NCBI RefSeq assembly: GCF_963576615.1
Contig: NC_088711.1
Location: 24,770,182-24,834,181 of the forward strand
Direction: 5' to 3'
DNA: 64,000 nucleotides
Source of the DNA: Watersipora subatra
Lineage: Eukaryota > Bryozoa > Gymnolaemata > Cheilostomatida > Watersiporidae
A program made the position numbers and the translations under genes. How positions within the stretch are numbered: the first letter of the stretch is position 1; every line of letters starts with the position of its first letter. Positions 25,974 through 54,419 of this stretch are shown one piece after another. Below the pieces are notes generated by a model. The model was not told the DNA's origin, searched no databases, and worked only from the letters and a program-made list of their open reading frames with translations.

Positions 25974-26169
25974 GTAAGTGAAAGAATAATGCTTGCAGCG
26001 ATGTTTTGCATTTTAGAAGCAGTACCTCTTCTTACTAGTTCCACATGTGTTGCTCGCGTTGGTTTCCAACTATATTTGAAAATGTAGCTCATGACACATG
26101 TACTAGATTGTAGATTGGCGTTGAATCTCATTCATTCTTCGCTTTAAACTCAGCATGTATCTGTTGCAG
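25974..26169 (+). other. Intron in 5' UTR of zinc-finger gene
   Basis: A strong donor, ACAG|GTAAGTG at 25973/25974, and an acceptor, TGTTGCAG at 26169, bound a 196-bp intron just before the start codon. If spliced, an in-frame TAG at 25952-25954 lies upstream of the ATG, so the first exon is non-coding. Inference from splice signals only. Confidence 0.55.
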
Positions 26170-26186
26170 GTACAATTTGGAGCAAC

Positions 26187-27497
26187 ATGACACATAAATG
26201 TTTCAAGTGCGATGAGAAGTTTCAGACGTCGGGGAAAATGGTACAGCATATGAGAAAAGCACATTCATCGTTCGTTGAAGACACTCAGATGAAGATTGAT
26301 CGCAGCAAAGAGAGTTCCTATGAAGCTAAGAGAGCTTCGAACAACTATGTGCCAATAGCAAAGTGTCCATTTTGCTCGCTCGATTGCGGAACAAGCAAGA
26401 AGCTAGTACATCACCTGACAGTAGAACACCAAGAAGAAGATGAAGAGTCAGCTGTGGAACCAGAACTGAAGGTCATTAGAGTAGAAAATGATTCAGACCG
26501 AAGGCTATTTGGACACTTACGTGAAGAGGAAAGCAGAGGTAGCAGCTCCAAAGCCAATAACTCAAGTATAGTTAATGATTTGCTCAATGTCCTTGAGAAA
26601 AATTCACAAAAAGAGCTTTCCATCCCTGGCAGCAGCGAAACTGTTAAGGTCTCATCAGCATCAATAAAACTTACAGAAAAGCGCTACCGATGTTTTTGGT
26701 GTGATGCATTTTTTCGGAAACGAGGCAAATTGATGGATCACATCGACATGTTTCACAAAGCGAATAAGTTGCAGATAGCTGAAGAAGCCGAACTTCTTGT
26801 ATCTGCTATCTGTCAGACACCCACTGCCACTGATAACACACCGGTCAAACTTACCTCACCAACACCAACCAAAAAAACAGCAACCTCCATACCTGGCTAC
26901 AAAGCCGCACAACCCAAATCAACTGGAAGAAGAAGGAGCTCATCCAAAAAATCTACCAAAACTCACACGGCTGAAACAGATGCTTCAGACCTACCAAATA
27001 ACTACATCTGCAGATTTATTTGTTGTGGTAGTGTCACCGGTGTGTCACGAAGGAAACCAGTACAGCGGTATACCACTAGTAGTGAGATGTATACTAATAA
27101 CTGCCAATTCTTTAGAGCGAGTGACCCAAACCCTTTAACAACACTTGAGGCTATGAAGAACTTAAACGTCTCTGATGAGCCTTCTCCTGTCTTTCTTCCC
27201 GAACCCTCAAGCTTGGATACTGCGTACAACAGCAATGAACATTTGATGAACTTTCACAAGTCTGCCTATATGTCTCAACCGCCTGCGCAGCCGACAGCAT
27301 TCTCACCCCCATTTTTGTCACCTATTCAGTTCTACTCTCAGCATATGGCACCAAACCCACTAGCGAACCAGTCGCAACACAGTCAGCCCCAGATGGGCTA
27401 CCAACAGCGACAGCACATGAACCAATCTCTCTTTTGTTACACAGTTTATCACCAGGACCCAAACATTCCACTAGATTTAACAGTTACTAGGTACTAG
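26187..27497 (+). CDS. C2H2 zinc-finger protein with C-terminal PLDLT motif
   Basis: 436 residues in one exon, probably a nuclear DNA-binding regulator. Three C2H2 fingers are visible: C5/C8/H21/H26, C60/C63/H76/H81 and C169/C172/H185/H190. All have X12 between the second Cys and first His and X4 between the histidines. They are widely spaced and lack TGEKP linkers, so a tandem DNA-reading array is unlikely. Residues 82-165 are acidic and polar. Residues 200-270 are Thr/Pro/Lys/Ser-rich with a basic stretch (GRRRSSSKKSTK) that could be a nuclear signal. The C-terminal third is Pro/Gln/Ser-rich and low complexity. The last ten residues contain PLDLT (428-432), matching the PxDLS/T motif bound by CtBP corepressors (family knowledge). 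I do not recognise an orthologue. The start is supported by an upstream in-frame stop after splicing the 5' intron. Confidence 0.88.
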   Translation: MTHKCFKCDEKFQTSGKMVQHMRKAHSSFVEDTQMKIDRSKESSYEAKRASNNYVPIAKCPFCSLDCGTSKKLVHHLTVEHQEEDEESAVEPELKVIRVENDSDRRLFGHLREEESRGSSSKANNSSIVNDLLNVLEKNSQKELSIPGSSETVKVSSASIKLTEKRYRCFWCDAFFRKRGKLMDHIDMFHKANKLQIAEEAELLVSAICQTPTATDNTPVKLTSPTPTKKTATSIPGYKAAQPKSTGRRRSSSKKSTKTHTAETDASDLPNNYICRFICCGSVTGVSRRKPVQRYTTSSEMYTNNCQFFRASDPNPLTTLEAMKNLNVSDEPSPVFLPEPSSLDTAYNSNEHLMNFHKSAYMSQPPAQPTAFSPPFLSPIQFYSQHMAPNPLANQSQHSQPQMGYQQRQHMNQSLFCYTVYHQDPNIPLDLTVTRY

Positions 27498-31012: not shown

Positions 31013-31205
31013 TCAGGGGATGGCCATAAGGTCAAGGAGGTGATTAATTTTCACATTGAGCCAATCAGTCTGTTGAGGAAGTAATTGGAGAACATAATCT
31101 CGTGGCAGATGGCTGTAGCCTGTGAGACCACCATGAACGGCACCTGTAATAGTAGCCGCTGCCTTGCAGTCTCCTCCAGCCATCACAACTTTCATCATAG
31201 TCAGC
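31013..31205 (-). CDS. LRR-ARH gene, last exon
   Basis: Acceptor TATGTAG|G completes a lysine codon. Encodes MKVVMAGGDCKAAATITGAV, GYSHLPRDYV, then a WLN...LLDLM tail and TGA, the recognisable C-terminal end of ARH proteins. The consensus GGDxDTNA has become GGDCKAAA. Confidence 0.85.
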
Positions 31206-34200
31206 CTACATAGCCAGCAAATGTATGCAATGTCTAGCCACTGATGAAAGCCTACATCATTAGCCTATATAGAAATCACCTCACAAGTGGTTTGATTAAA
31301 TATCGTGTTACATGTTGTGTTAATTTATTCTAAGCCAACTAACCAAGATTAAATTTTACAAAAGAATCTTTTTGACAAAAATTGCTATTGATCATTACGG
31401 TAGCTGCTAGCAATCATTATTTTTACGTGTTATTTTTCCGTTTAGAGATTCTAGACGGTTGAACACCAACTTCTAAGTTTTCTACAAAATGCTATTTTCT
31501 GACATGAAAGGCAAAAGTTAGCAACATAATTACATTTCTTTTACCAAAAATGAAGCAAAACATAAAGTTTGCCAACATTTGTCTGATTCAACTTACTCCT
31601 AATGAGGCTGCATATTTTAGAATGATAAACAAACTTGGCGTGAGCCACTATCAGCTATGGTTTGACCAAAGAAGCCTTTTAAAATAAAGAGCGGATCAAA
31701 TCTTGGGCTTTCATTGTGTTTTAGAGATTCGCCAAGGAATTGTATTTTCCAAGAAACGAGATTGAGTCCATACTGTCGATAACAGTTTTTGCAAGTACAT
31801 GTACAATGCTATTGGCTTTTGGTTTACCATTTTAAACTTCAAAACTAGAAACTAAATCTGAGACAATTTAAACAATGTAGGAAAAATAAAAAAATAGCCT
31901 CATGCATCGTCATAAAGTAGTACCATATTCGATTTCTGACTTTTACGGCCATTAAAGGAAAGTGTGCCTCCAAGATATAGCACTTGTCCAATCGATGCAG
32001 CTCTTCCACTGCTACATGAAGGCAATGAATGCCGAGGAGCATTAGCTTATAATACTTTGCTGAATCTGATATAAAAACAGAGAACATCCTTGTTGCACTC
32101 ATACTTCATGCATGACTGCAACTATTAATGGTTGTTTTGCATGTCATGACTTTATTAAAAATCTTTTGATATTGTGATATCACCAAAAATAACAATTCTT
32201 GGTGATATCAATCACCAAAACACCAAAATTCTGATCTCATCAAAAATTTTACATTCTATGATGCCATCCTTCAGAAACTTTCACTCCGACACAAAAGAGT
32301 TCTCAACTACAGATATAAACTGTGTCTTATCGACCAGCAAGCCATCTACACCAACCACACTATACACTTCAGTAGCAAGCAGTACTTTTAATGCTGAAGA
32401 TAGTTTAAGTTCACATGATTGGCACTGGTGGGGTGGAGCAGGAAACGCCCTCACTGATTAAATAACTATCAAATAGTTTTGTCCTTGAAGCAAGGACATG
32501 TAAGATGGTACAATTGATGTGCGGAACTTGATATGAAGTTCAAATCTAGAAGATAATGATTAGCATGTGGAGTTGTCTATACTCAGTATGAAATCCATTC
32601 TGTACTTTGATTTGGTTTGTTTAATCAAATGTGAACCAAGCTAGATAATCACTCAGCTCTGGCATTACAGTATGGTTGAGTTGGATGGCTGGAAGGAGTG
32701 CAATATAACTGCGTGAAAGACACACCCACATACGTGAATGACACACCCACATACACTAATCTGAAACTCCGCCCACTCTCTCTTTTGTCATCTATTAAAA
32801 CACAATAGGTCTGTCACTTTCTATGACGTGTCATAGAAGATATGTTAAAAATAGATATAGCACTTCAAGGAAGATAGAAACACACCCAACATGTATATCT
32901 CGAGACTTCTAACAATCTCTAGAATGGTCAGAGCATCAGGCTAATAGTTCCGGCTAAGTGTAAACCTGTTTCTCCTGACCAAACAGATCACAAGTATATC
33001 ATCTACACCTAAAATTATGACATTCTCGCCCACAGTCCTGGGAGGATACCTTTTAAATGAAGGCTTGATAAGAACTGGTGTCTGTAACAGATAGCGTCTC
33101 GAATAAAATGACCTATATGTTGGGGGATGTTTTTACAAGTTTCATTTGTTGATCATGCCAATACATCCAACAACTAGGCCTACTCATAATAATTTGGCTA
33201 TTGATTTATCACCCAATACTTTTATAAACAATAGGGAAGGAAATAGAAGTGGCACAATAAAAAATACTTTTTAAGACAATAAAACACAAAGAAGAGTGTC
33301 CGCCTTACTTACCATCGGTATGCTATTTCACGTTGAAACAGGGATATACGGCAACATAAATGTTATGTTTATTGCTGTCATAACCAACCAGTGCTATCAA
33401 CTAGCATTTGATGTTTCTAACCATCTTACTAATCAGGACAAAGGTTAAAGTTGATAAAATGTATCTGAGAGATGCATTAAGAGAGGAAGGGAATATAGAC
33501 CAAAGTATGAGAAATTTCCAAGAAAGACAGACGCGCTAGTGTGAACCACCGAATACATCCCCAGCAAACCAGATTACGACAACCTCTAAAACAGCCCAAG
33601 GTCAGAGTGAAACGGGCCTTTCCAAACATCATATAAATATTTTTAAATTCACAACTATAGCTGGTCGACAGAGAGCCAGCAGATGCACAACAGATTTTAG
33701 CAGATGTTTTCAAAAATCACAGCAGGAAGATTCAGAGCTAAAAGTAAACCATCTGACAAACTGGTTGTGTGACGGTAGTCTAACTATTAAGTATAATTCG
33801 GTTGGACGATTCAGCACTCAATGTTTATCCATAAAAACTCCTGAGAGACTAATTTGATGATATATAAGTGCCAGCTTAATGTTCACATTGACGTCAGATC
33901 AGGCCAGACCTTGTTTTCAATATGAGACCACCACATAAGCTGACATGTTTGACCTAAAAATGCTAAAGCCACTACTAAGCTAACACCAAGTGAGTAATTA
34001 TTAATAACTCAGTACATTATCTAGCCTGTAGAAGTATTGAATAGATCAGGAGAAGTACTAGTACCTCTCCTGATCTCACACAGAGTACAGATACAAGTAT
34101 GACAGCTGGTGCCGGCACACGTATGTGTATCACTAAGTCAGATAGAGGTGCCAATCAAGACAAAAATGGGTCTACACGAACAAGCAATAGGCATAAGTCT

Positions 34201-37200
34201 ATGAAGTGATACAGATATATGAAGCAGTGATACAGTGATATGAAGCTGGTACAGTCCATTGATAAACATAGATACTTATGTCGGTGTAGATGTGCGAACA
34301 CTGGTGTGGGTGCACGCAGGTAGAAGTACAGGCGCAAGTAGAAGAGCAAGCACAAGAGGTGATACCCTATTCATCTGGTATTTCATCAGGTATATATTTG
34401 ACACCTCCGCCTGACTTCATTTGCAGCGAGCTAAGCCAACACTCTTCTTCATAAGGGGTATGGCCAGAAATAAAATGTGGCTCAACTTGAAATCCTGCCA
34501 TTAATAGTAAGGCAAGAATATTCACCTGAAATCTCTACCCCATCTCAGAGACTGCAGCGCCACACGCAATGCTTTCATACATCCCTCTTTCTCTTCCATT
34601 CCCCTTCAAATAATAACACAACATCTGTGGTCGCAACTTAACATAAAAAAGAAATTAGTCACGTATGACCAGCACTGCCTTTCGAGCACAGACTGGTCTG
34701 TTGGCTGCTGTGGCATGATAATACAACAAAATAAAATGACATGCGGAGTAACTGTTACTATTAGAGAAGGTGTAGTCCTATACGAGTGCTCAGAGGATTA
34801 AGGGAACTGAGGCTAGAGGTTTAAGTGTGTCATCGCTACATATTTATAATGCCTCCCAGAAAGGTTCGCTAGTAACCTAAAAATAACGCAGCTAATTATA
34901 GTTTTCGGGCTGAGATTATCAAAACTTTTGTTAGGATTTACAGCAAAAATGAAGGAAACTAACATTACACCGTCCAGAGCTAGTAGCGTTAGGATATCCA
35001 TAGCAGGTGACAATGAGACAGGTCAGAGCCTCCCCTGGTCAGTCGTGTTTTGATAGACAAGGGATTCAAAATGGCTGCTTGGGACAGAATTTTGTGCACA
35101 CCAAAAGCGAGAAGAGGGTGTGGTGAGAGTGATAGAAAGGGGTGTTGAATATGAGGAGGGAAGGAGAGAACAAAAAGGTGAGAGAAGGGGGAAAGAGAGG
35201 TGATGAAGATATTTGTGGAACCATACTTTGCTGTAAGATGTAAGACTATGCTATTGGCAGCTTTAGCTCTGGCCTTTTTATTCTATTAATAATCTAAATT
35301 CCCTCTTTCATTTTCCTTATTGTCTTTCTTTTTTACTCACATTAGCCTTCTTAGCCCTTACACCCTGCATCAAACCTTACAGGCTGCAGTTATGAGTGCA
35401 GTTAAAATGGGCCTAAGTCTAAATAGAGGTTTGGTACATTAAAGCCAGTGGTAAGTAGGAATGCATATTCCCTTAATAAACAAATAGGTCTCAACTAAAA
35501 CTAAAATATCTGCTAATGAGTGTCAATCTACCATGATATCAGATCTGTGTTACCATTGGCTATGTAGTCAATAGGAAGTGCTATTATTTGTCGCTAAGCC
35601 ATGCGTATCTTGACTAAGATAGAGTTCAGCTAAGAGCAACAAATATCAGGAATAGAGCAGTCAGTCCATCATGTTCCTAGTCTACTGGGTCATTCTTAGC
35701 CCATAAACAGTTCTCATTACAGATAACTTACGAATAGAATATAACACCTCCCTCATCGTTAGAATAGGCTTGTGAAGAAACTAAGTCTTTCATACGCTCC
35801 ACTCCGAAGACAAATAAATAACCAGAAGGCATGGTAAATGAGCAGCAAGTTTTTTATTGACTTCCTGTGTTTACTAACTAGGTCAACGAAGATTGGCAAA
35901 AGTTGAGTGTAGTGAAATGCTTCATTTTACGTTGAATTTCGTCTTTTATGAGTGTGAAATACTGTGAATGTGAGAAGGATCAATTTTGAAAGCTAAACAA
36001 TCAGGGAAGACTGGAGGTAGCGGCAAGGTGGTTGAGTGAGATCGGAAAATAAATCTAAGTAACAAAAAATGAAAAGGCAGAAAAGAAATATGAGAGAGGA
36101 GGTAAATTTATGAACAAATACTTTTTATGAGTGTATCCACACAAATACAATGCTTACTTGGCTGGATTCTCGAAAATGGCTGCAAATTTATTCCTACTTT
36201 CTTCGTTGGGTAAATATTGTTGTGCTGCTATGAATGCCTCCTTGGCCAAATGATCTGGTTGGCAGTTAGTTCCCTAACAACATAATATAATAGATCAAAA
36301 TTTACAGGAGCCAAAGACAGCTCTGGTAAACTAGGTCACCATATACCAAACCAGGTCATGCTAAATTAGGTCACCGTTTACCAAACCAGGTCATGCTAAA
36401 CTAGGTCACCATGTACCAAACCAGGTCATGCTAAACTAGGTCACCATGTACCAAAACAGGTCATGCTAAACTAGGTCACCATGTACCAAACCAGGTCATG
36501 CTAAACTAGGTCACCGTGTACCAAACCAGGTCACTGCATGCTTAACTATGTAGGTAATTTTGTGCAGTGAGGAACCAAAAAACTCTTTCAGCGTTAGAAA
36601 ACAACCTGTCTGCCTCCATACTGCCATATTTACAGCAATGATTTTACATATATATTCACAACATTCAATCAGTAACTTTAGGAGAAAATTTCAGATGTAT
36701 TTTACAAGCTAAAGACACCAAGGAGTTTACTCAAAAAGAAGTGCATATGTAAAATAAGGTGCCGATGTAGAAAGGAACTACAACTTAGCATACAATGCCT
36801 CAAGTGGAAGCACCCAAAATGCATAAATAATTCATGGCTATAGCAAGCGTTGAGTAGAGAAATGACGACCCGTGTCATCCCTGCACATGCTCCGGCATAT
36901 GATTACTACAGCAGTAAATAATGAGGGCTGAGCAAGTAGTGGTTCTGTAAGTAATGGAATACTATGACTTGCTCGTCATCCAGAATCAGCACCTCTCTGT
37001 ATTAATTGACCAATCAGCATAGAGACCAGAGATCAGTGAAATGACCATTTGTAGTAGAAAAGTTCGTTGGCCAATGTTCGGAAATGTTAACAGCAATTTT
37101 GGGAGTATTTTATAGAATATTAAAAAGGAATTCAGAATGCATCACAAATTATTTGGTTTTTGCTGTCAAGTGACAATTGTAAATGATAATCGTATATAAT

Positions 37201-40200
37201 TTTGGTTAATTTAGTCACAAAAAGTACCAATTTTAAGCTTGATATTACTTTAGATTTGAGATACCTTTTAGAATTAAAACATGATAGTTTTGAATAAAAA
37301 TGTTTTATGTGTGGACACATCTCAATTGTGTCATCAGTGACCAAATCAGAACCAGAAGAAGTTACAGTCAAGCTTGGCCTCATGATGAACACCATTCCAT
37401 ATTGATTTCTTAACATATGATACAAAATCTAAGGAAATATTTGTCTCGATACGGATAGTAATTTCCAACATGTGACATTCAAAACTTTTCAAAAAATATT
37501 AAATTGCAAGTTAAAAGGGTGGTAAAAACTAAATATGAAAGCTATAAAAACGTATAAATTAAATTGATTTAAAGTATTTACAGTGTAAGCTAAAGTAAGT
37601 TACAGTTTCTGTTTTTACCATCCACTCTATTTCCAAAGTTGCTATGATTATTGTGTCTCAATGAAACCCCCAAAAATTCATTTTACTAATTTATACTTAA
37701 TTTAGTTTGTATCCATATTTATGCTTATATTATAATTATTTTTCAGTCCAGTTGTAGCTATTAAAATCTTGGAGTGAAAAGCTCACTACATACTAGATTT
37801 GAACTCACAGAGATTGCAACCACAAGTTTCTAACCACGCCTTTAACCACTGATCTACACAGTTCTTAAAAATACTATCGCTCTAATTATATACGGTACAC
37901 CCTTTACGCGACTGCACCAGCTAAATAAATGATTTAATAATTGATACATTGCGCCACGGGTTACAATGCCCCTGTTAAAAAATATTTTTTGCCTGACGCT
38001 ATGAAACACGATGCTTTCTGTCCTCGCCATAATGGGGCGAATTTGTTTTCCATCATACGATATCAACAATAATTTCTTTCGAAATTAAAATTTGGCAATT
38101 GTTGCACTTATTATGATAAAATAACAAAAATGTCGATATGCTATTTTTCCGCTATCTCAGTTCAGCGTTACGGTTCTGAACGTATTCGCTAACAAATAAG
38201 TGATAACATTTTAGTTAAAAATTAGAAGATTACTAAAATACATACTAAAACTTCCTTCAAGTATGTTTTTAGTGAGCTAAATTCATTTAAGTTAGATACA
38301 GCGTTTATGTTACACATATGTCTTGAAGGTAAGAACTCTGCATGTAGTACATTGTAATGTTACATCTGCTTGCAGACCATAACGACAAAATGCACTCAAG
38401 CTATTGTAGGTAACTATAGTTATCAAGGTTAACATATTGTTTTGTTACTACTTTTTAATGATGATGATTTTGATGATTTTTACCAGGATGTAATCGCATT
38501 AGATAATCACTATGGGTTTCTATACCACTCTGTATGTCTATGTGATATTTTCGCCTTGTGATGCCAACGTTGAAACAAACTAAAATCATATAGTTGTATA
38601 CCAAATAAATTTTCATTGTAGTCATAGCAAAATAGACCGTATTTAGCCATTATTTGCTAATGATTTCTCATTTGCATTTTAATTCCTTTACGGCTTTATT
38701 TCTCCTCCTAATTTATTTCAACAAAACACTATTCTCAGGATAAGAAATTTAAAAGTTACAGTTGTTTGAAAAAGTTTGAAAACCTTTACAGTGGTTTATT
38801 TTGCTTAATTCATTTGAACTGCACAAAAACACTTTTCTCATGATATGAAGTTTAAAAGCTAGAATGGTAATTGTTGTATATGTTAAATAAATATAAATTT
38901 TCTGTCCAAAGAATTTTTTATTACTCGGGCAACGCTGGGTATTCAGTTAGTACTATATATATTTACTTCTTTTTATTTTATAAAATGAAATAAATATATA
39001 AAAATTATATAAACTTATTATATCATATTTAATAAAATTTATATTTTATTATATATAATATAATACTATATACATTTTTACTTCAAGTACTACTGATCAT
39101 TATTTTTTAAGCTCTAAAGTGAATTATCAAAATACAATTCCTTCTTAAACGCACATTTGCTGCGAACTATGCCAGTTTTGACACACATGTACGTATCAGG
39201 TAAATATCAGAATATATTAACTTGACGTTTGACTAGATATTCTATAAAATCACTTAGTAAGAAGGCTGACAACCCCGCTTATGTAACTGGATAATGCTGC
39301 GGAGTTAAGAGAGTTAATGCCACGGAGTTAAGAGAGTTAATGCTGCGGAGTTAAGAGAGTTAATGCTGCGGAGTTAAGAGAGTTAATGCCGCGGAGTTAA
39401 GAGAGTTAATGCTGCGGAATTAAGAGAGTTAATGCCACGGAGTTAAGAGAGTTAATGCTGCGGAGTTAAGAGAGTTAATGCTGCGGAGTTAAGAGAGTTA
39501 ATGCCGCGGAGTTAAGAGAGTTAATGCCGCGGAATTAAGAGAGTTAATGCTGCGGAGTTAAGAGAGTTAATGCTGCGGAGTTAAGAGAGTTAATGCTGCG
39601 GAGTTAAGAGAGTTAATGCTGCGGAGTTAAGAGAGTTAATGCAGCGGAGTTAAGAGAGTTAATGCTGCGGAGTTAAGAGAGTTAATGCTGCGGAATTAAG
39701 AGAGTTAATGCAGCGGAGTTAAGAGAGTTAATGCTGCGGAGTTAAGAGAGTTAATGCTGCGGAATTAAGAGAGTTAATGCTGCGGAGTTAAGAGAGTTAA
39801 TGCTGCGGAATTAAGAGAGTTAATGCAGCGGAGTTAAGAGAGTTAATGCAGCGGAGTTAAGAGAGTTAATGCTGCGGAGTTAAGAGAGTTAATGCTACAG
39901 AGTTAAAAGAGTTAATGCCGCGGAGTTAAGAGAGTTAATGCTGCGGAGTTAAGAGAGTTAATGCTGCGGAGTTAAGAGAGTTAATGCAGCGGAGTTAAGA
40001 GAGTTAATGCAGCGGAGTTAAGAGAGTTAATGCTGCGGAGTTAAGAGAGTTAATGCTACAGAGTTAAAAGAGTTAATGCCGCGGAGTTAAGAGAGTTAAT
40101 GCTGCGGAGTTAAGAGAGTTAATGCTGCGGAGTTAAGAGAGTTAATGCAGCGGAGTTAAGAGAGTTAATGCTGCGGAGTTAAGAGAGTTAATGCTGCGGA

Positions 40201-43200
40201 ATTAAGAGAGTTAATGCAGCGGAGTTAAGAGAGTTAATGCTGCGGAGTTAAGAGAGTTAATGCTGCGGAATTAAGAGAGTTAATGCTGCAGAGTTAAGAG
40301 AGTTAATGCCGCGGAGTTAAGAGAGTTAATGCTGCGGAGTTAAGAGAGTTAATGCTGCGGAGTTAAGAGAGTTAATGCAGCGGAGTTAAGAGAGTTAATG
40401 CTGCGGAGTTAAGAGAGTTAATGCTGCGGAATTAAGAGAGTTAATGCAGCGGAGTTAAGAGAGTTAATGCTGCGGAGTTAAGAGAGTTAATGCTGCGGAA
40501 TTAAGAGAGTTAATGCTGCGGAGTTAAGAGAGTTAATGCTGCGGAGTTAAGAGAGTTAATGCCGCGGAGTTAAGAAAGTTAATGCCGCGGGAGTTAAGAG
40601 AGTTAATGCCGCGGAGTTAAGAGAGTTAATGCTGCGGAGTTAAGAGAGTTAATGCAGCGGAGTTAAGAGAGTTAATGCTGCGGAGTTAAGAGAGTTAATG
40701 CTGCGGAATTAAGAGAGTTAATGCTGCGGAGTTAAGAGAGTTAATGCTGCGGAGTTAAGAGAGTTAATGCTGCGGAGTTAAGAGAGTTAATGCAGCGGAG
40801 TTAAGAGAGTTAATGCTGCGGAGTTAAGAGAGTTAATGCTGCGGAGTTAAGAGAGTTAATGCTGCGGAGTTAAGAGAGTTAATGCAGCGGAGTTAAGAGA
40901 GTTAATGCTGCGGAGTTAAGAGAGTTAATGCTGCGGAGTTAAGAGAGTTAATGCTGCGGAGTTAAGAGAGTTAATGCAGCGGAGTTAAGAGAGTTAATGC
41001 TGCGGAGTTAAGAGAGTTAATGCTACAGAGTTAAGAGAGCTAATGCCGCGGAGTTAAGAGAGTTAATACTGCGGAGTTAAAAGAGTTAATGCTACAGAGT
41101 TAAGAGAGCTAATGCCGCGGAGTTAAGAGACTTAATGCTGCGGAGTTAAAAGAGTTAATGCTGCGGAGTTAAGAGAGTTAATGCTACAGAGTTAAGAGAG
41201 TTAATGCTGCGGAGTTAAGAGAGTTAATGCAGCGGAGTTAAGAGAGTTAATGCTGCGGAGTTAAGAGAGTTAATGCTACAGAGTTAAGAGAGCTAATGCC
41301 GCGGAGTTAAGAGAGTTAATGCTGCGGAGTTAAAAGAGTTAATGCTGCGGAGTTAAGAGAGTTAATGCTACAGAGTTAAAAGAGTTAATGCCGCGGGAGT
41401 TAAGAGAGTTAATGCAGCGGAGTTAAGAGAGTTAATGCTGCGGAGTTAAGAGAGTTAATGCTGCGGAGTTAAGAGAGTTAATGCTGCGGAGTTAAGAGAG
41501 TTAATGCTGCGGAGTTAAGAGAGTTAATGCCGCGGAGTTAAGAGAGTTAATGCTACAGAGTTAAAAGAGTTAATGCCGCGGGAGTTAAGAGAGTTAATGC
41601 TGCGGAGTTAAGAGAGTTAATGCCGCGGGAGTTAAGAGAGCTAATGCCGCGGAGTTAAGAGAGTTAATGCTGCGGAGTTAAAAGAGTTAATGCTGCGGAG
41701 TTAAGAGAGTTAATGCTACAGAGTTAAAAGAGTTAATGCCGCGGGAGTTAAGAGAGTTAATGCAGCGGAGTTAAGAGAGTTAATGCCGCGGAGTTAAGAG
41801 AGTTAATGCCGCGGAGTTAAGAGAGTTAATGCTGCGGAGTTAAGAGAGTTAATGCTGCGGAGTTAAGAGAGTTAATGCCGCGGAGTTAAGAGAGTTAATG
41901 CAGCGGAGTTAAGAGAGGTAATGCTGCGGAGTTAAGAGAGTTAATGCTGCGGAGTTAAGAGAGTTAATGCTGCGGAGTTAAGAGAGTTAATGCCGCGGAG
42001 TTAAGAGAGTTAATGCTACAGAGTTAAAAGAGTTAATGCCGCGGAGTTAAGAGAGTTAATGCTGCGGAGTTAAGAGAGTTAATGCCGCGGAGTTAAGAGA
42101 GTTAATGCTACAGAGTTAAAAGAGTTAATGCCGCGGGAGTTAAGAGAGTTAATGCTGCGGAGTTAAGAGAGTTAATGCCGCGGGAGTTAAGAGAGCTAAT
42201 GCTGCGGAGTTAAGAGAGTTAATGCTGCGGAGTTAAGAGAGTTAATGCTGCGGAGTTAAGAAAGTTAATGCTGCGGAGTTAAGAGAGTTAATGCTGCGGA
42301 GTTAAGAGAGTTAATGCTGCGGAGTTAAGAGAGTTAATGCTGCGGAGTTAAGAGAGTTAATGCCGCGGAGTTAAGAGAGTTAATGCTACAGAGTTAAAAG
42401 AGTTAATGCCGCGGGAGTTAAGAGAGTTAATGCTGCGGAGTTAAGAGAGTTAATGCCGCGGGAGTTAAGAGAGCTAATGCCGCGGAGTTAAGAGAGTTAA
42501 TGCCGCGGAGTTAAGAGAGTTAATGCCGCGGAGTTGAGAGAGTTAATGCTGCGGAGTTAAGAGAGTTAATGCCGCGGAGTTAAGAGAGCTAATGCCGCGG
42601 AGTTAAGAGAGTTAATGCTGCGGAGTTAAAAGAGTTAATGCCGCGGAGTTAAGAGAGTTAATGCTGCGGAGTTAAGAGAGTTAATGCCGCGGGAGTTAAG
42701 AGAGCTAATGCCGCGGAGTTAAGAGAGTTAATGCTGCGGAGTTAAGAGAGTTAATGCCGCGGGAGTTAAGAGAGTTAATGCAGCGGAGTTAAGAGAGTTA
42801 ATGCTGCGGAGTTAAGGGAGTTAATGCCGCGGGAGTTAAGAGAGTTAATGCAGCGGAGTTAAGAGAGTTAATGCTGCGGAGTTAAAAGAGTTAATGCTGC
42901 GGAGTTAAGAGAGTTAATGCCGCGGAGTTAAGAGAGTTAATGCCGCGGAGTTAAGAGAGTTAATGCTGCGGAGTTAAAAGAGTTAATGCTGCGGAGTTAA
43001 GAGAGTTAATGCCGCGGAATTAAGAGAGTTAATGCAGCGGAATTAAGAGAGTTAATGCTGCGGAGTTAAGAGAGTTAATGCTGCGGAGTTAGGGACACTA
43101 TCAATCTACAAACGGAGAGATTTCGCTATATTCATCAATTGTTTAATTGATCTGACAAGCCTTGAGAGAAGATTTTGAGGTCATCAGATTAGTGTTTTGT

Positions 43201-46200
43201 AGATTTTGAACATTCCTTTGGAACAAGTACAGAATTATATTGTGATGTTATTGTCTGAGACTGAAGTGCATGATGAATCATTACATACTTTGAATTTCAG
43301 CAGTTAGTGACGTAAGCGCTATGACGGCACGCCTATCTTTCATACCAATGGCTGCTTTGCTTTTAAACATGTTTGGCTATAGCTTTCAATAAATTTAAAT
43401 TGAAACTAGTCTTCTAGTATTTTGAATGATGTTGTTTCTGAGAGTTGGTCCATAGTTCATTAGAAAAAAATGTTCTTCACATGTATTATCTATGTTTTAG
43501 CCGTTTGGTAAATGGGTTGAGAATGCTACACAAACAGTGCATTACCAGATATGAAGTACAAAAAGTAAGAGTTATCTTTTCTTGTAATTTAAACAAAAAG
43601 TAGACAACAAAATATGTCATATTTGACATCAAACTATTATGAATGCTTGTTAAACTGATGAACTGATAGTCATTGGATTCAATGTTTCAGTGAGCAGGTA
43701 TAAAATTTCTCTATCAGCTTAACATCGTGTGGGAATCGCTAAAGAGAGATGTCTAAGTTCATGTATGTCATTGGCAGAGAGAGAACAATATTAAAATGTT
43801 TATACCGACTGCTGGTTAATACATTTTTGTGAGTAGAACATTTTTATGATATCAGCGTAAATTGATGTAGATGTTAATATACTTAATGTTTTATTAACAA
43901 TTTGATCTAGCAACTAGTCAGAATTATTATCTGTCAAAAAGCAACAGTGAAAAGTGATCTCAATGGAATATTCTCTGTCTGATCGATACATTGTCATCTC
44001 CACTTTGTAGTGTTAGTCACTTTTATTGAGTTCTGAAGTTTTTAAATACATTATATAACTCAAAACATTTATGACTTCAGATGTAAAGCACCGCATCATA
44101 TCTGTTCGTACAATGAACTCATCGACCTCAATTAACTGATTTCCTGTGAACCATTTTCAATCAGTGTTATTGCTATTAAGATTACTATACTACTGTAATT
44201 ATTAACAAATTGAGCTGCTTTTTTGGTGAAACAAGCTTCTCAATGAGCGCACATAAAATAGACTAAATAGAAATATTTATATACTAGATTATGAATTATT
44301 GATTATGGATGAATATTGATTAGGAAATTAAATGAGATTACACAATAAATTAGCTTAAATATAAAACCCAACACTGGCCTGTACCAAGCATGCGCCATAA
44401 TAAATAAATTAAAATGAACAACATTTATAATTATTCCACAATAGATAAATTGTTTTATGTTTTTACAAAAGTAGAGTGTAAGTTACTATAATAACGTCTT
44501 TTGAAGATGCAAAACTCCAAAAAGAAACGAAAGCAAAGACTAGACAGTAGACAAGTTTTTAGCGGAGTTACACCATGTCTATTTATACTCTGCAAAGTAT
44601 CTCTGGTCCAACGATATATATTCTTGTGTTGAAAATTGGTCTATCTGCAACTTCGACCGTAACATATGTGTAGGAATAGGAAACCGATGTAGACACAAAA
44701 AGCAGGTAGAAAGTGAAGATAACTGAAGATCAGTTCTATGAGAGTGTTTCACACAGCATTGGCGCGCCTTCACTTACCCACATGTACAGGTACACTTCAG
44801 GTGCACGCAGGTACACTTCAGGTACACACAGGTACACTTCAGGTATACGCAAGTACACTTCAGGTACACTTCAGGTACACACATCAATTTTTCTTCAACC
44901 TTACATCGCACGCAAAATAAATGATACAGGTATTACGGATGTGCTAACCTCAGATTACACCTGGAAACATTTGAGAATGCGGATGTACCATCGGATACCG
45001 TTTGAGGCGATTATTAGCATGCAGCTAGCTGGCTAGGACATCAATCACTTTGATTGCATCAAAGATATATAGACCGTGTATTGTATTCAAACCAGCAGAC
45101 GGTCAGTGAACTTTATTTGCCTTCTAGAGAGAGCTCACACTTTGTTCACATTTTTCGAAAAGGTAAATGCGTCGTACCTGCAGAAGGAGAGCAACAATCC
45201 CTGAGAGAAAAGCAGAAGCTGTGACGCATGTGGAAGAACTGTGAGTCACTTTACAAAGTCTGACTGAGTTTGCCATCACTTCCTCCAAATCGTGAAAGTG
45301 AGGAATACCTGGTGTTAGAAACAATCCAAACTTCATCTATTTAGAGCAAGGAACTCGAGAGGTAATGCTATTTACGGGGGTCTGACGTTCGTGCAGTAGC
45401 ACAGTCCATTTTCTAAGTAAAAGGAATATTTGACAGCTTAGCTTATCATTGGGCAGCAGCACCAAGCAGCAGTTTAACATTTTTAACAAATAGCTGCCGA
45501 CTGATATTGAGCAAGTGTAGTATTCGCAGGAGTAGACAACTGTAGATGATAAAAAAAGGTTTGCCTAGTAAATCGTGCATGCACTTGAAATAAAACTAAT
45601 GATGTTAGATAGTGACAGCAGCTATACAGAGTATAAGAGTGTGTTTAGTTGAGCCGTCCAGACTTAATATCACTGATATAGTGACATCAAGCATCTGTCT
45701 ATCATTTTCAAAGCATTTTTAGACTGCAAAAAAGTCACAGGCGGATCTTTAAAGGGATAAGCTAAATGATAAAAATGCACAAAGACCCTGGGACGGGTGA
45801 CACATTAGTAGGAAATTTGATTAATAGAAACAGTGTGTAAAACAGATGAATATTTAATTAAATACTCGGTTAATTAAATATGCGATGAAGTCACGTAGCA
45901 AAGAAGGAAAAACCGTATTTTAAACTCATCTTTCTGAAAAATGTTTTTCTAACAACCAGAAATGCTAAAAACCAACAAGTTATCTTATTCATTATACTAA
46001 TTTGCCATCTTTTACTGCCTAATTTGTGTAATATTTTATGTATTTTTGTATTTCGAACTTTCTGTGCTCCTTTTCTTGATGCTCGCTGCGCGGTAACAAA
46101 TAAAAGCACAATTAATTTATTTTTTGCGAGGTACGCATGTCGAAGTAGATTGATGACTTGGTTGATTTCAAATAGAAGCATATCAATATGTCTCAAACGT

Positions 46201-49200
46201 GGTTTTACATGAGCATATTTTTGACATGCGGGAGAGCAATGGCTAACACAAAGTGTTAGCAAAAACTTACTAGTGTGTTCATACCTTGAACACAGTTACA
46301 CGCATGTCAAACACTCGTCGTTACAAATGATGCTTCGTGCAAATTAAACTATTTAAAGCAGGCCCTGAGAATATGCGCGGAAAGGTTGCAAGATGGTACT
46401 GGGACAGGACCATCTTGGATATGAGACAGTTTCTAAACAGTCTATATTATATATGAGGATATGCAACTACACTTGCTCCAGCTCAGAAATGGTATGCAAG
46501 GTGCTGGCATACTTGATGAGCTTGTAAAATATATTTTCCATTATTCCAACCTGTAATGAGCGCTCGTACAAGGGCAACATCATCTTCAACCTCAGAATCT
46601 TGACTGGCAGCAACACGATGGGGGTCGGTGGTAAACTCAGAATCACACATTATCTTAAGAAGACCGGCAAATTAAATATTAAAGCAAAGCAGAGAATTAC
46701 CACGTGTTCAATACAACATATCAATCACTTTTAGCACCTTTTCTACTTTTATAAAAAATAAATTCATTCTTAGCTTATTCTTCCATGAGCAACTCGGCTA
46801 TGCTTAGTATGCCGTCTTGCTAGGATCTTGGCTACAGCATTCATGACATGCCCGTAAATGCTGTAGCCATAACATATACATTATTTGATAAAAAGAGTTG
46901 GTTAATCACAATGAACTTACCTGCGTATGCTTTACTGCAGGTTAAATATTGATAAATACATGTACGTAAGCAAGCCATAACTAACTCATCCAAAAAAGGT
47001 ATATTCCAGACGACATTTGACAGATATGCAAGCAGATCAATAGAATTATATAATATTGTGAACAGATTGCAGTGATAAAACAGAAAAATTATAGATGTTA
47101 CAACTTAACTACGAGCGTCAGACAAAGTAGTAAGTTCATTCTTAGCTCATATACCGCTAAGATCTCAATCCATTCTCACCACAAACTATCATTAGGAGCA
47201 CTGGCTATTGTCATCACGCCCCTCACTTCATGTGAGCACAAATTCATTTATAATTCTGGCAAAGATGAAGCACAATGTGTATCATAAAATAGAAATTGTT
47301 AACTAAAATGAACGATGATTTATCTTACAGAATTTCAATGCGTCTCACATGCAATACGATGCTAAACCATAAAAAATAAAATGCATCTGCTGTGAAACTA
47401 CAGCTTCCTAAAATTAATTCTTTATAAGAATATTTACTTGATAAATATTCATTGATCATTTATTTGGAAAAGCTAAAAGCTCTAAATAAAATTACCCTTT
47501 CTGTTTAAAGCAGATGACTGATTCTAGCATGCGTGCAAGAGAAGATGACTCTAGCATGCGTGCAAGAGAAGAGAAGATGACAAGAAGATATGAATACGGA
47601 GTACACGCTGGAGCAACTCTTATTTAATAGTAGTATTCAATTACAGTATTTTAGTTTATTCTTCATGTAAGCAATGAATATACACAAAAATCACTCAATG
47701 CCAAAATACTAGACAGCTACTTTGGTTACTTTGGTAGATGAAAGATATCTGCCTTTTATCTTGTCTGTAAACATTAATGCCTAGCCTGTGAAAGCAAAGC
47801 ACTAATGAATAAATATTTGTACCTCATCCGTTGATTTGGACAGACAGAAGCCATGCTTATCGCCAAGCTCAGGGAACCCCGAATAACGCCAGGCTAAGAG
47901 TCTCTTGGCAAACTCGAGTTCATCCACCACACCTGCCCACTGAATGATGCCATCCATAACCAAAGCCTGCGCAAACAACAGAAAATAATAGAGCTACAAA
48001 GGCTGACTAGTAACCTGCACATTCCACTCCTCAAATAAAAGACTAGTAGTCTGCACATTCCGCTCCTCAAAGAAAAGAAAGTGCACTCTTGTTTTTCACC
48101 TAAGACTGGCAGTGAGAACCAGAAATGGTAGGTTTATTACATTAAGATGATGATTATAGAGTTACTATTACACAGTGCATCTATTGATGCTTCATTACTC
48201 ACTGCAAACATCAATGTAACCCATCTATAGAATTTAATAAGAAAATCAGTTTCTCATTATTTCATTCGAATAGATTGCGGCATACCAAATGTGTTGACTA
48301 TAATTTTGGAGTAGAAGAGAGAGGACAAATCCAAAATATCAACCTTATTCAAATAAGGGTGTCTTGCTTTGCTTGTGACATAAATAAATACTACAACTAA
48401 AAAAAGACTACTTAGAAAAAGAAAATAAAGAAAAGTAGAAAAGAAATAAATAGATTAAGATGACTCAGCAAATGTCTGCCTCTTTTTATTAGATTAGATG
48501 GCAGAAAACAGCATTAGGGAGATTAAAATCTTTGTACAACATGACAAGCCACCGCCATATTAATTAAAAATGCTTTATTACAATATGCTCAACTCTTTAT
48601 TACATCTGTCTGTATTTTAATAGTTGAGTAACTCTCACCATTTGATCAAAGGCAGTAGTCCAATCCCCCTTCTTCCAGTGTGTCCTGTGCTCATCTCTGA
48701 TTATATCATCGTAGCACAGTGTCAAAGGCTTGTAGTGAAAAAGACACTCATCCACTGATAATTGTTCCGTAGCTAAGGCTAATGCATCACCAATAGCAGC
48801 TCCATATATCAAACCTGAACAAATAAGCGTTCCAACATTATTTTCGTCTGCAGACAGTCACAGGATTTATCTCCTATTTATCAGCTACGATAAACACGTC
48901 TATGCTAGCTACGTCTATGCGTGCCTGCTTTATCAACACCATCATAAGTAGAATAACCATTGACTAGAAAAGATGCTGGTTCACCCTAACTCTGTTGAAG
49001 TCACAGAGGAAAATCTCATAATATATTGAAAATAGTTTTTCTCAACCTTGACCTTGGCACTGATTAGTAAGACAAGGCAACAGCGAATAGTTGACAAAAA
49101 AATTGAAAATATGAGAAAAAATTACTTGCCGACAATTCTGTCTCTAAGATCTGCTGCGACGAGAGTAGATGAACCAATAGGTGGTATTAAGGGTGTCTTA

Positions 49201-52200
49201 ACTTTATCAGGGAATATTTGCAGCTGGGAATATTCAAGATTCCTAACACTAGCGTTGTGGCTGGACATAAGCAAATGTGGACTCAGTATCCTAGGAAACT
49301 CGAGAGTATATGTCACTTGTTGAGTGGGAAGACCGCTTGACATTGACCTCAATGCTTCAATTGTCTTCCAACTTCCTGCAAATATATTGTACTTTAATTT
49401 ACACTATAAGTTGATAGCTTTTTTAATAACTGAATCGCTTCAGGTGAAAATGCAATAAAACCAATATAAAAATTTAGATCCTGCTGTCAGCCTGTTAGAG
49501 CCTGCTTGCTAGCTTAAGAATTAGGATTTGCGAATAAATCTAAACAATTTTAAAGCTGATGGCAGTACAGCACTTCTGTCATACACATCGATATTACATT
49601 TCTGCTACAGCTAAAAAGCAAGTGTTGAATCAACAAACGACAATTTTTTATTGTACCTCTCAAAGCACTGCTACTAACACTCATTGAAAAACATTTTGGT
49701 TTTCATATACTGTATTTACTAAATGAATGCCTGGCATTGCCCAGGTAATAAGTCTGTGCACAGAAAATTTATTTTTATTTAACATATAACAATAGTTCCC
49801 ATTCTCACCTTCAAACTTCATATCATGAGAAAAGTGTTTCGTGCAGTTTAAATGAATTAAGAGAAAAAATAAAACAACTGTCAAGGTTTTTAAACTTTGT
49901 CAAGCAACTGTACCTTTCAAACTTCATATCATGAGGAAAATGTTTTGTGCAGGTCAAATAAATTAAGAAACAAAATAAACAAAGATAAAAGGGTTTAAAT
50001 GTAAATGTGAAATGATTAGCAAGTAATGGCTAAATTAAGCCTGTTTTGCTACAATTACAATAAAAGATGATTTGGTAATGATACGATTAATACGAACTGA
50101 AAAAACAAAATAAAAATCCTAAATATGTTGAATTAATCATAACAAATCGTGCATAAAAATGTGTGTATAATTACTGTTCCAGCAAAAGCTATCCATCAAA
50201 ACTTTGAATACGATGATACTGGTACCTCTTGACACTGGTACAAATGCAAAAATAAGATATCGGAGTTTCTTTGTCTGGTACTTTGTCTGACCGAATGGAG
50301 AGAGAATGTAGAGGCTATTCCTACTCGAGATAATACAATTGTCCACATGAAATGTATTAGCTTTTACCGATGTAGCTATCAGACCTTGCGAAAACCAGAA
50401 ATAAAAATGTAATGCCACATTTGAAATTGTAACGGCACATTTAAAAACTACAAAATTAAAAAAATAGGTGGTAGTAGCTAAAAATTAGTTTTTAAACAAT
50501 TTAAAACAATAACAAATTCAAAAGCTAATATTGGTTGATAATCAAAAGTGCACATTTAGCATGCAATTTTGCACCGTAAGAGTGGGCATACGGTATATGA
50601 TAGAATGCTGAGCATTGTATAGCTCAGTGGTTAAATATGTGGTTTGAATTTTGCGGTTGTAATCTCTGTGAGTTCAAATCCAGCAGTCAGCGAGCTCTTC
50701 AATCACAGATTTTAATAGCTATAACTGGACAGGCAGACATCTGAACAGACAGACATCTGAACAGACAATGACAAACTTGGAGATTTATATAGATAAATCT
50801 ATTCGTATAGTCTGTGTACACTATAACTATTTAAATCATAGTAGAGAAGCACTCATTGGTGTCATTTCAAAGTATCCACCAATATCAACTAAGATCACAT
50901 GACTGTAAAAATGTACACTCACTCAGTATTAGCTCATGTTATGTAATAGTGCTCTCACATGCCACGTAGCAGTATTAGTTAAGCTTTTTCAACTGTACTC
51001 ACCCAAATCACAAACCTCTTGAGAAGGCTTCTGTAAACGATTGTTTTGTACAAGAATGACTTGTAGAGGACATTGTGCCAATTCTACAGGAAGCTGTCGT
51101 AATCTATTATTACAGAGATTAAGCCTAGCCAATGAGTTCATCTCACCAATCTCTTCCGGCAACTCCTTTATAAGATTGTCTGATAGGTCTAATTTTTCTA
51201 GAGTGACAAGCTTAGTTACAGATATAGGCACAGCATCCAGTTCATTGTGGTCCAAGCGCAGCTCTTGCAGGTGAAAAAACAGTGCGAAAGTTTCTGGAAG
51301 TGAAGAGATTTTGTTGTAACTTAAAATCAGTTGAGTAAGATGAGGAATCCTGAGTGGGACCTCCTCGGGGATATCACTGATGTGGTTAAATGATGCATCA
51401 ATTTTCTCATACATGGTTGTGCTGTCTCTCAGGTCCCAAGGAATTTCGGTGAGACAATTATAGTTTATCTCCCCTCGTGAATGCTGTAGCCATAACAGAT
51501 ACATTATTTGGTAAAGAAAATTTTTCAATCACAATGAATTCACTTGCGTATGCTTTACTGCGGGTTAACTATCAATAAATACACTAGCAAGCCATAATCA
51601 ATCTATCTACATAAGAAACATTAGACAGATATGCAAGAAGATCAACAGAACTACATAATATTGTGGACAGATGGCAGTAATAATGCAGAGATATTATAGA
51701 CTTAATCTTAACATAACCAACAGTGCCAGATAAAATAGTGAAATTCATTTCCACATATGCCGGTATGTTTTGAAACAAAAACACTAAATACCAATAAATT
51801 GCAAGTTAACAGGGTTAAAAGGCGAGTTTGACCTTTTCCTCGCCTAAACAGAACTTATAAAGAGAGCTGCATAAGACGAGTCACCATATTCAAAATATTT
51901 CCTCAAGAATGTATTTATGATCAGTTGAGTGCCTGGGTTTGGTTTATGGTTATTTTACTGAGAGTTTATTGATCAAAATATACATTTTCCGAAATGGCGT
52001 TTGTTGAAATTAAAGCCTTTTGAAAAATTTAGGCTATTAGTCAGAAACTCAAACCATTTAGACAAAAAAAATAATATTGGACAAAAATATTATTATGTTA
52101 ATATTAAATTTTTACCTGTTACTTAAATTTATATTTAGCTTAGCGTTAGTTTAGCTTTATAGTTTTCTGCAAACTCTAACAGCTAAACATATGCTATGTT

Positions 52201-54372
52201 ATAATTGATGTACCGGTAAAATATTTCACATAGATAATTTTGTTGATAAGCATGCAAATCATTTTTATGTCATTTGGAAACACATGACTGTAATAATATA
52301 TACATAGACAACATATTGTGTGTTCCTTTGATTAAAGATTCCAGTTTTTATGCAAAATTTGACTTGTTGAAAGCTGAACAAACTTTACCGACATGCATGT
52401 TTACTTGTTCAACAAGCTATATATATATCTTACATTTATGTACAGTATCTATTTATATCTCAGTGTCCCGCTGTCTGTCCAGTTACAGTAACAAGTTTTA
52501 AGAACAACATATCCGTTTTGCAGAGGATTTGAACTCGGAACCAAGACTTCTCCATTAGACTACATGGTCAACTAAGCATGGAGATTAAGAAAAGTGAACA
52601 TACTCAATACATCGGTTAAAATACCAATAACGATGTTGCGATAACACCTAACAATGACCAGCTAGCCTCATTAAGCAAACGCCTGGTGTTGCAAAGGTAA
52701 TAAAAACGGCTTATAAACGATTGCAGGTAATGTAGTGTAAAGGTAATGTAGTAGGTAAGGGAATGTAGGTAATGTAATGTTTATAAGCGGTTTGTTTATT
52801 ACTCGTTCAATTCAGGGCATTCACCTAGTATATAAATATATACTAGGTGAATGCGCTGTATTGCACGAGTAATAAAATGATTACCCAAGAAATTTGACTA
52901 ACTTACGTCATAAGCTGGTAGTCTCAAATATTTATTAAAACAATAGCGATATTTAAGTACAGATTCTTCATTTCAAGACTAATAATAGCAATAGCTGGAT
53001 ATACCAAAACAGACGACGAACGTATTTCTCAAAGTTTGTTTATATTATTGAGAAATATAGATTATTTATATACAAGTCTTTGTTATTCGTTTGTTCAGTT
53101 GAAGCAATAAAGTTTTAGTAGCGAAAAATGACCTACTGGATTTGACCTCGCGACATTCAAATCGCAAGTCTACTCACAAGCGCGCCTAACCATAAGGCTT
53201 CGCCGTTCTTATCACAGCCATGGCTTTTACCATATACTGTAGATGCTTTCACACACTAAACATGTGTAAAAAGTATATACAGTAAACCCATTTCCTTTTG
53301 AGCACATTTAGTGTGTGCAGTGTGTTTACACACTGCGTTTACACAGTCGCAACACTAAATGTGTAATATTTATTACCTTTATTTATTTTTTGCCTTAGTA
53401 AGTGGAAAACAACTTCTCGTCAACCTTGCCATATGAAAGCGAAAATTTTGTTCGACTGTTTTCCGCCATACAATATCAACAAGAAATTGTCTCGAAATTA
53501 AAATGTGGTAGTCGGTGTGCTGATTATGTCGAAATAACGATGATGCCGATAAGTTATTCGCCGATATCCTACTCACAACGCCTGAAAGTAATACGATGCC
53601 CGCTCTCTCTATCACAGTTCAGCTCACCGTTATTCATTATAAGTTATAGTGAAAACGAAACCGAAAACAGTTAGGTGATAAAAATTTAGCCGTTGAGAAA
53701 GTTGAAGTTTAGTAAACTACATACTAAACCTTAGCTTCAAGTATGTGTTTAGTAAATTAAATTCATTTAAGTTAAATTCAAGGTTTATGTTATACGTTTG
53801 TTTCAAAGGTAAGAACTCTCTACAGTATGTATTGAACGTAGTACATGGTAATATTACACTTTATTCCAGATCATAACCACTAAATACAATAAAGTCGCTG
53901 TAGGTAACTATAGTTACTACGGTTAACATATTATTTTGTTAGTAATTTTTACTATACATGCACTTTTTAAAAATATGGTATGTAGTGTATATAAAATTTT
54001 TGACGATTTTTACCAGAGAGTGTTTGCTTTAGATATTTACTATAAGTTTCTATATCTCTCTATACAAAATTTTTGTCATACGACGCCAACACTAAAACCA
54101 CATAATTATATACCAAATCATTTTTATTGTAATCGCAGCAAAATAGATTTCATTTAGCCATTACTTGCTAACTATTTCACATCTACATTTCAACATGTTT
54201 ACAGTTGTCTTATTTTATCTCTTACATTATTTTAACTGCACAAAACACTTTCTTCATGATACCGTATGATGTTTGAAAGTTAAAATGGTAATTGTTGTTA
54301 AATGTGAAATAAAAATTAAGTTTTTTGTGCAAAGACTTTTTTATTACCTTGGCAACGCCGAGCATTCACCTA

Positions 54373-54419
<47 letters not shown>

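Follow-up and report, generated by a model that had tools for sequence, protein, structure and literature searches.

The ARH family of ADP-ribosylglycohydrolase-fold proteins includes a recognised pseudoenzyme, the vertebrate heart protein ADPRHL1 (ARH2; PMC7390403; PMC9738213), which is 47% identical to ARH1 (PMC9738213) and which, in mammals, is described as having lost three of the four metal-binding aspartates, small deletions in its cleft disrupting heart formation in Xenopus (PMC7390403). What the loss of such residues entails has been reported for human ARH3 (ADPRS), an active enzyme in which MgA is held by T76, D77, D78 and D316 and MgB by D314, D316 and T317: according to this account, each of the substitutions D77A, D78A, D314A and D316A abolishes serine-ADP-ribose hydrolysis, with some residual poly(ADP-ribose) (PAR) hydrolysis left in D314A; D77A, which lacks MgA and hydrolysis, nonetheless binds ADP-ribose 23-fold tighter; and D314A, in which MgB is lost, binds it 44-fold more weakly, like the metal-free state, tight binding being dependent on MgB (PMC8141533). 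Proteins of the DraG type are not new to animals, since a coral proteome is reported to hold three sequences annotated as DraG (PMC3750612). Here we describe, from a 64,000-nucleotide stretch of the genome of the bryozoan Watersipora subatra (contig NC_088711.1, positions 24,770,182 to 24,834,181; hereafter the window, in whose own numbering all coordinates are given), a minus-strand gene of nine phase-consistent exons (51483..31013) that encodes an N-terminal leucine-rich repeat (LRR) domain and an ADP_ribosyl_GH domain. We give somewhat better than even weight to the reading that its product is an ARH-fold pseudoenzyme joined within one gene to an LRR serving as a binding module, that is, a putative non-catalytic adaptor.

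The exon model was built in this analysis, with splice sites picked to satisfy phase and an open frame. In the joined protein, ADP_ribosyl_GH (PF03747) is matched in one stretch over profile positions 1-286 of 287 (E value 1.3e-37; 130.5 bits against a cut-off of 26.2), and exon 1 matches LRR_8 at 7.7e-22 (77.3 bits, cut-off 27). A preliminary description of this DNA had linked an LRR exon to ARH exons by phase without listing them; the link held, on the minus strand of the same interval and in compatible phases, and both Pfam domains fell within a single joined protein. Searched against the PDB with phmmer, the ARH part recovered MJ1187 (1t5j, 7.1e-15), the DraG-like 6dre (2.9e-7) and 2cwc (1.4e-4), along with weak matches to 8ydl (0.12) and 8za7 (0.81); human ARH1 and ARH3 were not among the matches at E values up to 1, and no ARH2 chain was seen. 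A profile of the window protein's homologs does reach human ARH1 and ARH3 (the latter at 1e-19), and by these comparisons the ARH part apparently lies nearer to the DraG-like branch than to ARH1/ARH3. The LRR part found its best PDB matches in SHOC2 chains (4.3e-50). A full-length SHOC2 array is not present: the roughly 150 LRR residues align to repeated parts of SHOC2 chains of about 500-580 residues, and the window protein differs from SHOC2-like short LRR proteins in its shorter LRR and its C-terminal ARH-fold domain.

It is at the binuclear metal site that the protein departs from active ARH/DraG enzymes. Homologs for comparison came from a scan of genome contigs in which a Prevotella homolog, not the window protein, was the query; 65 of its 72 loci yielded open frames of 230 residues or more, making 66 proteins with the query, and the 62 bacterial homologs with 270-345 residues were used. 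Equivalence to the human ARH3 ligands was set by sequence motif (TDD and DxDT), not structure. Thr291 and Asp500 are the two of the six ligands so defined that are kept; the other four, three Asp out of four and one Thr, have been substituted. The N-terminal T/S-D-D motif, TDD in 62/62 homologs, reads T-T-A (Thr291, Thr292 and Ala293; 48651..48659, minus strand), and the C-terminal D-x-D-T/S motif reads D-C-K-A (Asp500, Cys501, Lys502 and Ala503; 31160..31171, minus strand). Among the homologs, the second Asp and the Thr of D-x-D-T are each present in 62/62 and the first Asp in 60/62, with three sequences (L023, L051 and L059) not matching the strict GGD.DT. Equivalents of ARH3 D77, D78, D316 and T317 are missing; MgA should be gone, and MgB retains one of its three ligands. 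Conserved Glu255, Arg375 and His402 are kept as well, and in the MRT loop N-G has become D-V, the NGxxMRT motif reading DVxxVRA. The preliminary description had noted GDWT followed by T-A instead of D-D, GGDxDT turned into GGDCKA, and drift at VTHxD and NGxxMRT, all of which we see (VTHxD reads VTHSS, with His kept); its wording that the domain had lost its metal ligands fits four of the six, Thr291 and Asp500, as well as conserved Glu255, being still in place. Because the replaced ligands are of the kind that proved essential in ARH3 mutants, the domain is unlikely to hydrolyse ADP-ribose linkages. A Lactiplantibacillus ARH taken as control (P0002), whose mean identity to the family is 25.1% against 25.2% for the window protein, keeps all six ligands.

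The reading frame offers a second line of evidence. Across eight introns, seven GT-AG and one GC-AG, all sixteen splice sites fit and the phases are compatible; reading from 51473, the single stop in 551 codons is the one at the end, whereas the two alternative frames contain 31 and 45; a start at 51483 would give a spliced protein of 555 residues. Exon G+C is 41-51%, compared with 33.7% in introns 1-5 (4992 bases; the intron figure used an earlier start for exon 3). When neutral substitution was simulated from the present sequence (1000 runs per level), 20% of runs were without a stop at 0.02 substitutions per site and 2.2% at 0.05, with 0/1000 at 0.1, 0.2 and 0.5; the stops expected numbered 12 at 0.2 and 21 at 0.5. 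At least four of the six ligand codons were replaced in 0.4% of runs at 0.05, 9% at 0.2 and 58% at 0.5, and an earlier exon model had given the same pattern of stops. Since neutral loss of the ligands would take long enough for stops to appear, the frame was probably under selection during or after that loss. Thus, at the level of sequence, the features that define a pseudoenzyme, namely a fold kept, catalytic metal residues lost and a frame maintained, are all present.

We propose that a single gene yields a protein in which an LRR domain precedes a complete DraG/MJ1187-type ADP-ribosylglycohydrolase fold with a broken binuclear metal site. The LRR would engage another protein as its partner, and the ARH-fold domain would offer a further surface for non-catalytic binding or scaffolding, probably by way of its altered cleft, a role suggested by analogy with what has been proposed for vertebrate ADPRHL1. 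Both proteins belong to the ARH family and have lost three of four metal Asp, and the cleft of ADPRHL1 is reported to be needed still (PMC7390403). However, ADPRHL1 keeps the N-terminal Asp55, whereas the window protein keeps an Asp of the C-terminal motif; the available text of the reports mentions no LRR for ADPRHL1, and it is MJ1187/DraG-like chains, not ARH1/ARH3, that the window ARH part matches directly at E values up to 1. With DraG/MJ1187-type enzymes it shares the full-length PF03747 match and its closest solved relatives (1t5j and 6dre), but differs in having four of six ligands replaced, in its fusion to an LRR and in its place in an animal genome. With ARH3 the family is shared at profile level and the ligand positions map by motif, ARH3 being active. 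An ARH pseudoenzyme is a kind already known from ADPRHL1; the LRR-ARH combination was not found described in the literature searched (most subscription journals lying outside it) and may be annotated elsewhere. This would be a second ARH pseudoenzyme, apparently from the DraG-like branch, in which the LRR could name a partner and so open a tractable route to the ligand of a dead cleft.

The exons differ in how they are individually supported. Exon 1 (51003..51483, as all exons on the minus strand) carries the LRR domain; its acceptor is either CTACAG (exon start 51483) or CACGAG (start 51473), and its phase 1 donor is GTGAGT. Exon 2 (49130..49375), comprising the LRR end and a linker, closes with LRDRIV, where the ARH domain begins. 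Exon 3 (48639..48814) encodes the N-terminal ARH part (GAAIGDAL..ATEQL..GDWTTAFDQM; PF03747 at 2.8e-8 for 48612-48845 alone), exon 4 (47823..47966) ARH helices that align with MJ1187 (GVVDELEFAKRLLAWRYSGFPELGD), and exon 5 (46551..46653) DPHR..EDDVALVRALIT, the counterpart of the homologs' P..ANGGVMRTS. Exon 6 (45178..45308; IPHFHDLEEV..CKVTHSSSTCV..ALLLQ) reaches PF03747 at 1.1e-5 for 45124-45336 alone (25.6 bits against 26.2). Exon 7 (36158..36273), the weakest, runs from phase 0 to 2 and has splice sites and phases that fit; it would supply a variable middle helix, GTNCQPDHLAKEAFIAAQQYLPNEESRNKFAAIFENPA. Exon 8 (34526..34603; GMEEKEGCMKALRVALQSLRWGRDF) runs from phase 2 to 2 and gives the same length to GGD as in homologs, and exon 9 (31013..31205) encodes MMKVVMAGGDCKAAATITGAVHGG..LLDLMAIP and the stop (PF03747 at 7e-5 for 31016-31264 alone, 23.1 bits against 26.2). 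Taken singly against Pfam, then, exon 3 is above the cut-off, exons 6 and 9 are slightly under it, and there is no match for exons 2, 4 or 5. When one exon at a time was shuffled in the final joined protein, the full score of a family hidden Markov model (HMM) was reached in 0/300 shuffles for each of exons 2, 3, 6 and 9 and in 1/300 for each of exons 4, 5 and 8; exons 7 and 8 shuffled jointly reached it in 2/300.

Several alternatives were discarded on the way to this model. The first version lacked 36273-36158 and 34603-34526 and had exons 3 and 9 extended at their starts; its Pfam match was 1e-30 in two stretches, and the corrections brought this to 1.3e-37 in one and raised the family HMM from 111.1 through 117.6 to 128.2 bits. 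An exon 3 start at 48847 was rejected for 48814, and an exon 9 start at 31264 was replaced by 31205. Joining exon 9 straight to exon 6, with ANDVGFHQWLDIAYICWLC as coding sequence, was dropped, since inserting exons 7 and 8 preserves phase and makes the domain complete. A middle exon candidate at 35873-35796 was rejected at a score of 121.9, under several controls. Exon 7, in a region where the fold varies, was picked by eye among 19 candidates on a resemblance. Exon 8 ranked first among 631 candidates from target region and controls combined, with 124.5 against 124.2 for the best control elsewhere; the lead is narrow, but agreement in length and the last round of shuffles strengthen the exon. 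A sub-profile search for missing exons was underpowered (exon 4 was not among its 12 best rows and exon 5 ranked 8th), so that its failure to detect a middle exon is uninformative. Within 1.5 kb past the stop there is no ATTAAA, and AATAAA occurs only about 1.4 kb or further off (29614 and 29521).

Homology spanning the exon 2/3 junction, which splits the conserved ARH start (LxDRIV|GLIYG), argues against the LRR and ARH parts belonging to separate genes. With the exon 3 acceptor at 48814, the junction reads LRDRIV-GLIYGAAIGDAL and aligns without gaps to the homologs' DRIKGxIYGQAIGDAL; the family-HMM score went up with this acceptor (111.1 before, 117.6 after), and 1/500 shuffles of exon 2 then matched it, whereas in the earlier model 200/200 had done so, leaving exon 2 without support there. 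Because ARH homology runs across the junction, the join of exons 2 and 3 is supported. The link between exons 1 and 2 is weaker. Of 13 PDB matches to a query across that junction, 3 run beyond it and 10 end before; 4 of the best 60 of 292 rows of LRR alignments to the PDB extend past it, and the LRR_9 match in the joined protein reaches residue 167. The junction would split a putative LRR C-terminal cap motif.

A number of observations count against our preferred reading of an LRR-linked pseudoenzyme. The LRR exon adjoins a dispersed repeat, leaving the 5′ end weakly supported and possibly truncated, and the exon 1/2 link comes mainly from matching phase (1 on either side), together with a consensus donor. 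Because splice sites were selected to fit it, the open frame is in part a product of the model, and one intron requires a GC donor (exon 2, CG|GCAAGT). Exon 7 is without profile support: its shuffles reach the full score in 256/300 (313/500 in an earlier test), and added by itself it gives a family-HMM score of 117.0 against 117.6 without it. The ligand contrast is drawn with one control protein and, of the 85 columns that 95% or more of the homologs conserve, the window protein keeps 37 and P0002 keeps 42, so that part of the ligand loss may reflect a general drift of conserved columns. Fusion and pseudoenzyme alike are read here from the genomic sequence of one locus.

The adjoining repeat raises the possibility, which we consider unlikely, that the locus is a copy silenced only recently: a gene for an LRR-ARH enzyme or pseudoenzyme whose 5′ end was removed when a repeat inserted, and which is no longer expressed. 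The repeat copy (51476..51749; 74% identity over 292 columns to 46853-47140) ends at 51476, where the LRR exon starts, and a separate start exon was not identified; moreover, a fifth of simulated copies remain without a stop after 0.02 neutral substitutions per site. Yet the same copy contains the CTACAG acceptor and an in-frame ATG at 51504, an alternative start from which the protein would begin MYLLWLQHSRGEINYN, and it may supply the acceptor or the start codon of the LRR exon. All sixteen splice sites and 551 open codons also speak against silencing, with the proviso that the sites were selected to fit, and the ligand replacements are not explained by silencing alone.

If the gene is intact, the domain might instead read ADP-ribose or ADP-ribosylated proteins, binding without cleaving while the LRR brings it to its target. 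Glu255, Thr291, Asp500, Arg375 and His402 of the conserved motifs are kept, and the tightened binding of ARH3 D77A means that loss of the first Asp can make an enzyme a binder (PMC8141533). Such reading is nevertheless made less likely by the replacement of two of the three MgB ligands (the D316 equivalent by K, that of T317 by A), given the weakened binding of ARH3 D314A without MgB (PMC8141533), an argument weaker than that against hydrolysis; the N-G of the MRT loop has also been replaced by D-V. We therefore regard it as improbable, and of the pseudoenzyme interpretation in the preliminary description we retain the LRR-ARH fusion with a broken metal site, as seen in the sequence, while disfavouring its ADP-ribose reader. 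A more specific version, to which we attach a slim chance, is that Lys502, at the position of a Mg-holding Asp, substitutes for the charge of MgB, so that a metal-free cleft would bind ADP-ribose or a related phosphate-ribose mark carried by LRR-selected partners; if true, this would be a new class of ADP-ribose reader derived from an eraser. The published ARH3 mutant data make the choice between reader and scaffold a simple question for calorimetry.

A still-active hydrolase with an unusual or single-metal site is very unlikely: Thr291, Asp500, Glu255 and His402 are kept and ARH3 D314A has residual PAR hydrolysis, but three of the four metal Asp are replaced, one of them by Lys, and in ARH3 every single Asp-to-Ala change ends serine-ADP-ribose hydrolysis (PMC8141533). 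LRRs are common as sensors, but an immune decoy, also suggested in the preliminary description, with the LRR as sensor and the ARH fold as bait for a microbial effector that ADP-ribosylates or handles ADP-ribose, is very unlikely here, the LRR's best PDB matches being SHOC2 chains and no death, TIR or NACHT domain appearing at E values up to 0.01 in the assembled protein, whose 5′ end is weakly supported.

Relatives of the window protein were found in five bacterial plasmid records and in none of the phage records or viral contigs, in searches that used an early 286-residue model containing about 30 residues now judged intronic and lacking exons 7 and 8; a viral scan with the Prevotella homolog as query also gave no relatives. 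The homolog profile additionally found PDB 6sga (chain 6sga_FP, mt-SAF23; 2.8e-5) and 8xks (8xks_Q, ARHL; 1.4e-6), whose names suggest parts of larger assemblies; compared by name alone, they offer a lead to possible structural reuse of the fold. Literature searches on J1-crystallin and on the mitoribosome and mt-SAF23 found nothing.

The window holds further repeats and genes. Intron 6 contains a 3.8-kb minisatellite with a 23-bp unit (39292..43091; strongly GC-skewed, some 165 copies at 93%), and a second dispersed repeat family occurs in both orientations at 49705-49980, 38695-38952 and 54187-54575. On the plus strand, 5991-14731 contains an ASB-like gene, of a kind that points to an animal genome: several of its open frames match ankyrin repeats (Ank_4 being the best, 2.4e-8 at 9923-10240, and the rest weak), and a SOCS box comes after them (8.1e-7 at 14414-14731). 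Also on the plus strand, 26148-27494 is one open frame of 449 residues with C2H2 zinc-finger matches (zf-C2H2 at 3e-5, slightly under the cut-off; Zn_SUZ12 at 1.4e-6).

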